Positions 1,281-43,991 of a stretch of 43,991 bases of DNA are shown here, in pieces. The translations under genes and the position numbers were made by a program. The notes under the pieces were generated by a model. It saw nothing but the letters and a program-made list of their open reading frames with translations, was not told the origin of the DNA and did no database searches. Numbering within the stretch: position 1 is the stretch's first letter; every line of letters begins with the position of its first letter. Source of the stretch: Bacillus sp. REN16 (GTDB lineage: Bacteria > Bacillota > Bacilli > Bacillales > Bacillaceae_L); contig NZ_JAJFZK010000017.1 in assembly GCF_020731355.1 (NCBI RefSeq), forward strand, positions 1 to 43,991, written 5' to 3'.

Positions 1281-1321
1281 ACAACTTTAATAAAAGTATC
1301 CGTTCCCTCAACTAACTCCAC

Positions 1322-1408
1322 ATCCCTACGCTAGTATTAACTAACAGGTTCGAAGGGTCTGAACTCTAAGTGTTCACTCTCAGCAAAATTGCTCCCCTTG
1401 TGGTTACG
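1322..1408 (-). promoter_or_regulatory. TPP riboswitch (THI element)
   Basis: Read on the minus strand it shows the conserved THI-box blocks in order: GGGGAGC, GCTGAGAG, GACCCTTCGAACCTG and GCGTAGGGA. These form the TPP-binding core. It lies directly upstream of thiT, with the expression platform at 1232-1280. Confidence 0.96.
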
Positions 1409-5124: not shown

Positions 5125-5178
5125 GTATAACAAGCATTTTCATTCTGAAATAAGTATAATAGATAGATAGAAGACTAA

Positions 5179-5302
5179 TCAAATGCGCCTTGGCGTTTTT
5201 GCGCCCGATTTTTTTCGAGCAAGCTCGAAAAGTTTCTTTTGAAAAATCGTGGCATCCGCCGGAGGTTATAACTTTATTCAGAAGAAGGCTGAATAAAGTT
5301 AA
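5179..5302 (+). repeat. Dispersed repeat, short copy (inverted relative to 32411-32610)
   Basis: It starts TCAAATGCGCCTTGGCG, passes through GTGGCATCCGCCGGAGG and ends in a hairpin with 11-bp arms AACTTTATTCA/TGAATAAAGTT. The same blocks occur in reverse orientation at 32411-32610. The centre here is a short hairpin TTCGAGC/GCTCGAA (5214-5229), where the other copy has about 70 extra bases. It fills most of the rplI-dnaC gap. Confidence 0.85.
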
Positions 5303-31574: not shown

Positions 31575-31741
31575 CGTTTAGGAGCTAGATATATGGAAAT
31601 AGAAGTCAAATATGCGCGATTTATGTATAATCACCAATTTTAAACTATACAATAATAAAAGGGATATAAAAATTTCCATTTGACGATATCACCTAGATAT
31701 TATATATTGTATTGAGGTAAAGAATGCCCAGGTAAATATGG

Positions 31742-31780
31742 GAGAGGTTCATAGCTGATACCCTCTATAAAAAACTATGG
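31742..31780 (+). promoter_or_regulatory. preQ1-I riboswitch upstream of queF
   Basis: AGAGG (31743-31747) pairs with CCTCT (31762-31766), followed by the A-rich tail ATAAAAAACTAT. The loop CATAG pairs with CTATG, giving the H-type pseudoknot of class I preQ1 switches. A terminator follows at once. Confidence 0.93.
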
Positions 31781-31794
31781 AAACATGACAAATG

Positions 31795-32410: not shown

Positions 32411-32610
32411 TTTAACTTTATTCAGTCGGAGTTCAAACCCCGACTGAATAAAGTTAAAGCCTCCGGCGGATGCCACAGATTTTCAAAGGAAATTTTTCAA
32501 GGCATAAGATCAAAGACTAAGAACGCCACGTCCTGTGGCAACGTCTTTGTGACCCACATCGTGTGAGCCTAAAAAATCTGGGCACAAAAACGCCAAGGCG
32601 CATTTGATTT
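32411..32610 (-). repeat. Dispersed repeat, long copy
   Basis: Read on the minus strand it starts ATCAAATGCGCCTTGGCG and ends in a hairpin with arms TTTAACTTTATTCAGTCGG, as the short copy at 5179-5302 does in part. Between them lies about 70 extra bases (around 32500-32570) with its own hairpin GCCAC/GTGGC. It fills the queF-queC gap and ends a few bases before the second preQ1 switch. Confidence 0.85.
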
Positions 32611-43571: not shown

Positions 43572-43600
43572 TTGACATTGCAACAAATATGATTCATAAT
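43572..43600 (+). promoter_or_regulatory. Promoter of the T-box unit
   Basis: TTGACA (43572-43577), 17 bp, CATAAT (43595-43600). Transcription should start near 43607, about 50 nt ahead of the T-box stem I. Confidence 0.7.
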
Positions 43601-43654
43601 ATTCCTAATCTATACAAAAAAGATAGTTGTCGCTCAACTTATTATAAAAGAAGT

Positions 43655-43822
43655 AATGATAGGGAACTAGTAAATAGTCCTCGGGTAAAAGAGAGTAAAA
43701 TTCGTCGGCTGAAAGATTTTACGCGCCTGCAATGCTATTGAACCTGTCCTTTGAACTGTTAGGCAAAACCTAACCGTCGCCTGCGTTAAAGGTTTTTGAG
43801 TGGGTGCTAGAAGGATTTCTAA
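43655..43822 (+). promoter_or_regulatory. T-box leader, stem I to stem III, specifier CCU (proline)
   Basis: The specifier loop is clear: AGGGA (43661-43665) pairs with TCCTT (43747-43751), AATAG (43673-43677) pairs with CTATT (43735-43739), and the loop between holds the conserved AGTA (43669-43672) facing GAA (43740-43742), followed by CCT (43743-43745) as the specifier codon. The AGAGAG bulge (43690-43695) and the stem TAAAAT/ATTTTA follow. Then come GTTAGG/CCTAAC, CGTTAAAGG, GAGTGGGTGC and a stem III-like TAGAA/TTCTA. The conserved antiterminator TGGNACCGCG is not found before the window ends. The controlled gene lies outside; proline biosynthesis or prolyl-tRNA synthetase is likely. Confidence 0.8.
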
Positions 43823-43827
43823 TATGT

Positions 43828-43970
43828 GTTCAAAAAGGAGGATGAAAAGGACCAAGAATTTCAAGGCGGCGCTGCTTTGAGTACCGGAGCGTATGCAGTT
43901 AATACGTGAGGAACGGAGAAGCAAGCCAACGCAGAAATTCGAAGTGTCATTTTCACCGGACTTTTTGAAC
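43828..43970. repeat. Palindromic element of about 143 bp with imperfect inverted ends
   Basis: Ends GTTCAAAAAG (43828-43837) and CTTTTTGAAC (43961-43970) are exact reverse complements. Inside, TGAAAA/TTTTCA, GAATTTC/GAAATTC, TGCTT/AAGCA and CGTAT/ATACG pair in nested order, so the whole unit folds as one long stem. It has no reading frame of note. It stands where the T-box antiterminator is expected. Confidence 0.7.
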
Positions 43971-43991
43971 TTCCTCTTCTAGTATCAATAA

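Follow-up and report, generated by a model that had tools for sequence, protein, structure and literature searches.

A MITE-like element in the stem III loop of a proline T-box leader upstream of proB-proA

Near the end of the DNA stretch analysed here (the window; 43,991 bases, C9:1-43991 of a contig that continues to 56,703 bases), a proline-type T-box appears to run into a long palindrome where its antiterminator should follow. The locus raises the question of whether the palindrome has replaced or displaced the antiterminator, as an earlier note made from the window alone had proposed, whether it lies inside an expression platform that works at longer range, or whether the platform is of a new type. 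The answer that we favour, with a probability of about 80%, is that a complete proline T-box of proB-proA received a MITE-like element of ~150 bp in the apical loop of its stem III, and that the switch presumably still works.

The sequence shows that the feature is a real, complete transcriptional proline T-box located before proB-proA. The full Rfam model (RF00230, positions 1-219) matches C9:43647-44081 with 65.7 bits (E 8.7e-14), and the alignment contains a single large insertion, in the loop of the helix that immediately precedes the antiterminator. The Rfam search proposed in the earlier note thus recovers the T-box over its full length, but its score does not reach the gathering score of 93, and no T-box match at that threshold is obtained from the window alone. 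The assignment to proline is borne out by the CCU specifier, which agrees with the regulated pathway, because the genes beyond the window are proB and proA (NCBIfam TIGR01027 and TIGR00407, both above cut-off). ProB is 90-95% identical to the ProB of Ferdinandcohnia onubensis, Bacillus timonensis, and relatives (named records), and the host genome is Ferdinandcohnia-like. Promoter-like matches number 4 in 700 bases, compared with 1.6 in shuffled sequences, and the site listed in Table 1, upstream of stem I, is the best of them. Two other riboswitches of the window score above their gathering thresholds, a TPP riboswitch (1306-1408, minus strand) and a PreQ1 riboswitch (31738-31784, plus strand).

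The earlier note had correctly recognised stem I, the AGAGAG motif, and the GAA-CCU specifier region, but the helix that it took for stem III (GTTAGG/CCTAAC) is stem II. Stem III is defined by the motif RRRxG-stem III-AA in the accessible text of PMC7583486; because the purine motif GAGTG precedes and AA follows the 12-bp helix whose strands are given in Table 1, this helix is stem III. The palindrome does exist, although it is imperfect, and spans 143 nt from a GTTC to a GAAC; it is located not behind stem III but enclosed by it.

The antiterminator remained hidden from the earlier reading because the window ends at C9:43991 and is followed by an N and a repetition of the preceding 49 nt. An N with identical 49 nt on either side is apparently a scaffold join, and the length of the leader is uncertain because the sequence crosses it. 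Past the N, the sequence reads TATCAATAAAGGTGGTACCACGAGAGACAATGGTCTTTTCGTCC, followed by a strong terminator-like hairpin, proB, and proA. Extending the sequence beyond the window, as the earlier note had advised, therefore yields the T-box bulge TGGNACC of an antiterminator, a competing terminator (both recognised by sequence, not by switching), and the regulated genes. Antiterminator and terminator are of the normal kind and lie directly after stem III when the 49-nt duplication is read once, which excludes both the absence of an antiterminator and a new type of platform. Among the options that had been raised, an insertion inside the expression platform comes closest: the element does lie within the platform, in the apical loop of stem III, and the switch would still work across it.

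Table 1. Features of the proline T-box leader, the inserted element, and copies of the element in other T-boxes (numbers without prefix are window positions; C9 denotes the contig)
Feature	Position or locus	Strand	Basis or remark
Promoter-like site TTGACA-17-CATAAT	43572..43600 (L020:73-101)	+	upstream of stem I; consensus match only
Stem I	43647..43757	+	RF00230 alignment
AGAGAG motif	43690-43695	+	within stem I
Proline specifier CCU (after GAA)	43743-43745	+	position after GAA and downstream proBA
Stem II (GTTAGG/CCTAAC, 43758-43774) and stem IIA/B region	43758..43788	+	RF00230 alignment
Purine motif GAGTG (RRRxG), 5' of stem III	43798..43802	+	sequence
Stem III, 5' strand	43803..43814	+	12-bp stem with 43975-43986
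Left target duplication TTCTAATAT	43817..43825	+	8/9 equal to 43977-43985; empty sites in 7
Inserted MITE-like element	43826..43976	+	palindromic core 43828-43970
49-nt exact repeat	43943..43991	+	second copy after N at C9:43992; apparent scaffold join
Stem III, 3' strand	43975..43986	+	followed by AA motif 43987-43988
Right target duplication TTCTAGTAT	43977..43985	+	8/9 equal to left, not perfect
Antiterminator AAAGGTGGTACCACG	from C9:44040		outside window
Terminator-like hairpin	C9:44064-44098 (L020:565-599)		outside window; simple scan
Copies in stem III loop	proBA (G000); hisS (G000, G004, G007); thrS (G007)		Rfam alignment
Copies in stem II loop	argS (G005, full; G000, internally deleted)		Rfam alignment
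Copies in stem I 5' strand, before AG motif (hinge)	glyQS (G000), ileS (G007), alaS (G004)		comparison with orthologous leaders
Deleted copy in stem III loop, other genus	L296		30.8 bits
Deleted copy in stem II loop, other genus	L309		27.6 bits; perfect 8-bp duplication TATAAGTA, read from alignment
Core copy in stem II loop, other genus	L301		80.6 bits; adjoins a Bacillaceae-1 RNA in the same loop
Copy directly 5' of T-box, other genus	L313		stretch selected for that copy
Weak match, stem I insertion, other genus	L306 (G085 T-box)		E 0.02; ends GTTCAAAG...CTTTGAAC; before AGAGA motif

That the palindromic element is an insertion is evident from the orthologous leaders. A proB match is present in eight of the nine genomes of the genus, including the one that holds the window (G000), and absent from G004. 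In all seven congeners with a proB match, the proBA leader has an intact T-box without the element, and stem III is a short hairpin, e.g., GGATGCTAGAATAATTTCTGGTGTC. The alignment with relatives that the earlier note had called for thus identifies seven empty sites; a normal antiterminator follows position 43991, and the palindrome is not conserved in all relatives. The sequences TTCTAATAT and TTCTAGTAT that flank the element fit a target duplication, as would be expected for such an insertion.

The element belongs to a large family of dispersed repeats. A 171-base query has 39 matches in its own genome, some of which are pieces of one copy, and with a 150-base copy as the query, each of the nine genomes of the genus yields 16-55 matches. 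A covariance model built from 27 copies matches 43821-43977 with 190.2 bits and occurs at at least 262 places in these genomes (32, 20, 16, 40, 30, 24, 43, 41, and 16; lower bounds, with 150 candidates scored per genome). It also matches all four genomes of a sister genus and, with the genus included, at least 98 of 299 genomes of the order, whereas four genomes from two other genera of the family gave no match. The possibility that the element is carried by phages or plasmids was dismissed after a distant blastn search found no match in either collection. A known Rfam RNA was likewise ruled out, as the only one of 4227 models to match at E≤1 in L018 and L019, which contain two copies of the element, was that of the T-box.

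The ends of the element, which are of the GTTCAAAAAGGAGG and AGAGGATGTTCAAAAAGTCC types, are inverted (GTTCAAAAA...TTTTTGAAC), with an imperfect continuation. Among 66 non-redundant copies from several genera, 17 show at least seven equal bases in an 8-bp target duplication (3.25 expected from mismatched flank pairs) and nine show at least eight equal bases in a 9-bp duplication (1.2 expected). The length of the duplication was ambiguous in a fixed-offset scan of 53 copies, but a clear signal at 7-9 bp emerged when the offsets were allowed to vary slightly (66 copies). The copy in L288 is flanked by a perfect 9-bp target duplication (CTATTAGTG); the perfect 9-bp matches in L274 and L285 may derive from tandem copies. 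MITEs are short, have inverted ends, duplicate their target, and occur in many copies. As far as can be judged from sequence, the element behaves like a MITE, with its length of ~150 bp, many dispersed copies, inverted ends, and target duplications of 7-9 bp; the bcr1-type repeats of B. cereus are a possible lead. Several copies in G000 (L041-L045, L048, L049, and L050) are interrupted by repeat-like sequences of the CACATCCTGTG or CAGACGATCTTGCACGCCGG type, which represent nested insertions.

The element also has the characteristics of a structured RNA. Its hairpin is paired in 98.1% of the alignment cells, and two-sided changes occur in 13 of 43 pairs, compared with 5.8 after shuffling (0/500). 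The plus strand folds better than the minus strand in all 27 copies (mean -48.1 vs. -37.2 kcal/mol). Many of the single changes in pairs lead to G-U and few to A-C; because the rules of structure prediction allow G-U, this excess is taken only as support for folding of the plus-strand RNA. A fixed direction relative to genes was rejected, as both orientations occur without strong bias: where both neighbours have the same direction, ~16 copies are sense and ~11 are antisense to them. This hand count relies on home-made gene calls and omits duplicate rows, copies in T-boxes, and rows whose neighbours diverge or converge (15 of 49 tallied); 2 of the 16 are orthologous sites in different genomes.

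At proBA, the region that holds the palindrome (43822-43973, 152 nt) is predicted to fold with -53.8 kcal/mol (z -5.1; equalled by 0 of 200 shuffles), and a fold of 43797-43991 comprises the 12-bp stem III and the element as a separate hairpin (-66.6 kcal/mol, z -5.2). In the minimum-energy fold of the whole leader (G000, 385 nt, with the duplication at the N read once), the element core pairs internally with 100 bases and externally with none. The RRRxG-stem III-AA arrangement is present in the sequence, but in this fold the two strands of stem III do not meet, as the 5' strand is engaged partly by the left target duplicate (5 pairs) and partly by stem I. The left duplicate is thus, in the model, a real competitor for stem III, and such a pairing may disturb the T-box. 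The antiterminator helix A1 is missing from the whole-leader fold (0 of 5 pairs); because it is also missing from four of the five element-free congener leaders folded identically, the fold is a weak test of function. A simple scan detected neither promoter-like nor terminator-like sites within the element, and the only terminator-like site is that of the T-box itself.

The insertion at proBA is not an isolated case. The nine genomes of the genus yielded 163 T-box matches (19 + 72 + 72), of which 162 were searched for the element. Ten of these T-boxes contain an internal copy; the copies occupy seven gene positions, all in the orientation of the T-box, and are located in the loops of stem II or III or in the 5' strand of stem I (Table 1). 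Eight further copies end no more than 6 nt from the start of a T-box match (tyrS, three at valS, pheS, thrS, and two at glyQS, the latter two slightly further from stem I when judged by eye). Another six, all antisense, are located 12-37 nt 3' of a T-box match (four at serS, one at a brnQ-like gene, and one at glyQS), and two additional element matches are more than 800 nt away from a T-box (L135 and L137). Gene names are those of NCBIfam and, except for proB, proA, and glyQ, rest on N-terminal fragments below the whole-protein cut-offs.

Comparison of orthologous leaders suggests that the copies come and go. The hisS leaders of G000, G004, and G007 carry diverged copies (insertions of 121-181 nt), whereas those of G001, G002, G003, G006, and G008 have short remnants and that of G005 a minimal loop. 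In the case of thrS, a full copy in G007 is accompanied by scar-like loops in G004, G005, and G006 and by short loops in G000, G001, G002, G003, and G008; the remnants and scars of both genes were called by eye. The argS leader has a full copy in G005, a deleted one in G000, and an empty site in the five other leaders found. Going by these sequences, some T-box copies have apparently decayed to scars, and the hisS, thrS, and argS leaders with persisting or decayed copies still give full-length matches to the T-box model.

At all 12 positions inside (7) or directly 5' (5) of T-boxes, the copies are in sense orientation, compared with ~16 of 27 elsewhere (Fisher p 0.009), whereas the six copies behind T-box terminators are without exception antisense. 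This could simply mean that a transcribed switch tolerates an insertion only if its RNA folds on itself; because the plus strand does so better, sense copies would be tolerated in T-boxes. A rough estimate also indicates enrichment in T-boxes, with 5-7 positions observed and 0.7-1.5 expected (P about 0.0007-0.0009), subject to the caveats that the non-coding share stems from one 44-kb window, that genome copy counts are lower bounds, that T-box loci were scanned more sensitively, and that some copies are shared by descent; the input was 119 copies with at least 130 bits, compared with 116 in the nine congeners on recount, a difference without real effect.

Other repeats are found in comparable places. 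The stem III loop of the valS T-box of G006 (L160) contains a member of a second, different repeat family that recurs elsewhere, including a copy in the window (5178-5265; AGCCTCCGGCGGATGCC...GCGCATTTGAT) that is 92% identical to that in L160. The alaS T-box of G007 (L236) has another hairpin-like insertion in its stem III loop, which is absent from the other alaS leaders compared and has no other match among the loci examined. In the window, a Bacillaceae-1 RNA (RF01690, 32501-32567) lies between the two halves of a second dispersed repeat (32455-32608); because of this position, it resembles an inner arm of a mobile repeat.

The element is also present in T-boxes beyond the genus. In 14 genomes of other genera, which contain 270 T-box matches, 20 stretches were examined, mostly selected because their T-box is long, and the element model matches five (Table 1). 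The stem I insertion in L306 is possibly a related mini-element, and two more cases, in stem I (L303) and before stem III (L295), were noted by eye. The element is therefore one source of long T-boxes among several.

Apart from the insertion, the leader is an ordinary member of its family. T-boxes of proBA in Bacillus use a CCU specifier (PMC13198045), and the leader described here shares the gene pair and the specifier but differs in its inserted element, which is not described in the accessible part of that source. Insertions of unknown nature occur in every T-box domain, according to the text available for PMC7583486; among such lineage-specific insertions, one class can here be attributed to a mobile repeat that is dispersed and is accompanied by target duplications and empty sites. 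In the pneumococcal trp operon, a BOX element is located between two tandem T-boxes, and the riboswitches still appear to regulate (PMC3049150, as far as accessible). The two cases have in common that T-box sequence is transcribed together with a structured repeat that is small and dispersed; unlike the BOX element, the repeat described here resides inside a single T-box, in the stem III loop, and its family also occupies positions in stems I, II, and III of other T-boxes. The accessible portion of a review of prokaryotic MITEs regards effects on riboswitches or terminators as conceivable and points to potential T-box motifs within BOX elements (PMC10969869). The element resembles the MITEs covered there in its shortness, inverted ends, target duplication, and copy number but differs by the RNA-type covariation of its plus strand. 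We recognised no description of a mobile repeat within a T-box stem loop in the open-licence literature searched, as far as its text was accessible, and PMC3049150 came closest.

Since the T-box has kept all of its conserved parts and the element forms a hairpin by itself, the most likely reading, on the grounds of sequence and model, is a T-box that works and carries the hairpin as a passenger, and not a new platform. The N and the exact 49-nt duplication at the right edge of an element that has many genomic copies could also arouse the suspicion that the entire arrangement is an assembly artefact, but this is highly improbable: the junction between the right end of the element and unique T-box sequence is the same on both sides of the N, the left junction shares its side of the N with the rest of the T-box, a flank duplication is present, and only the duplicated 49 nt appears artefactual. 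Damage to the switch deserves more attention. An insertion of 150 nt close to the decision region, whose left target duplicate is able to pair with the 5' strand of stem III, might have broken or weakened the T-box and left proBA constitutively off or on, with the leader in decay, and the RF00230 score is indeed well below those of the proBA leaders in seven congeners (90.7-105.5 bits). We nevertheless consider this unlikely, as the conserved elements are the same as in the congeners, the insertion is limited to a variable loop, and copies have persisted or decayed in hisS, thrS, and argS leaders that still match the full T-box model.

A different objection concerns the role of the element and not the integrity of the switch. 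Its consistent sense orientation in T-boxes, its covariation, the better folding of its plus strand, and the rough enrichment in T-boxes would all be expected also of a cis-regulatory RNA that was domesticated by T-boxes, e.g., for tuning the kinetics of tRNA binding, and is not a neutral passenger. Its presence among congeners is patchy, however, and several of the copies in T-boxes have diverged, lost internal parts, or apparently shrunk to scars. Moreover, both orientations occur elsewhere, the copies just 3' of T-box terminators are antisense, and the orientation bias could equally result from a tolerance for the self-folding strand only, so that domestication seems a doubtful explanation. 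A more far-reaching proposal, which we regard as improbable, is that T-box leaders are preferred landing sites of a mobile, structured hairpin whose sense copies are kept in stem loops for retuning tRNA sensing, e.g., through added transcription time ahead of the decision, and that the birth and decay of such hairpins are a main source of structural diversity among T-boxes.

In the case of a working T-box with a passenger, the MITE-like element would have inserted into the apical loop of stem III, with a target duplication of ~9 bp as the result. Its RNA would form a self-contained rod atop stem III, which presumably still closes underneath. Because the purine motif, antiterminator, terminator, specifier, and stem I are kept, the decision between antiterminator and terminator should still be made by uncharged tRNA-Pro, which would bind the CCU specifier and stabilise the antiterminator, whereas charged tRNA would leave the terminator to form. 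RNA polymerase needs a few seconds for ~150 nt. The additional ~150 nt may therefore delay the polymerase and the decision, which would give the tRNA longer to bind and might, speculatively, increase sensitivity.

The apparent loss of the antiterminator thus resolves into an insertion in a permissive loop and a scaffold join, which shows why T-boxes with such insertions can score below the Rfam cut-offs. The hisS, thrS, and argS leaders suggest a route by which insertions in T-box domains may originate: a mobile hairpin inserts into a loop, where one orientation is tolerated, and is then reduced by internal deletion to an enlarged loop. Recurrent insertion and decay could in this manner explain T-box insertions that have so far lacked an explanation. 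Natural alleles of one and the same leader, with the site empty, full, or decayed, provide a ready test of how much RNA is tolerated between tRNA binding and the regulatory decision.
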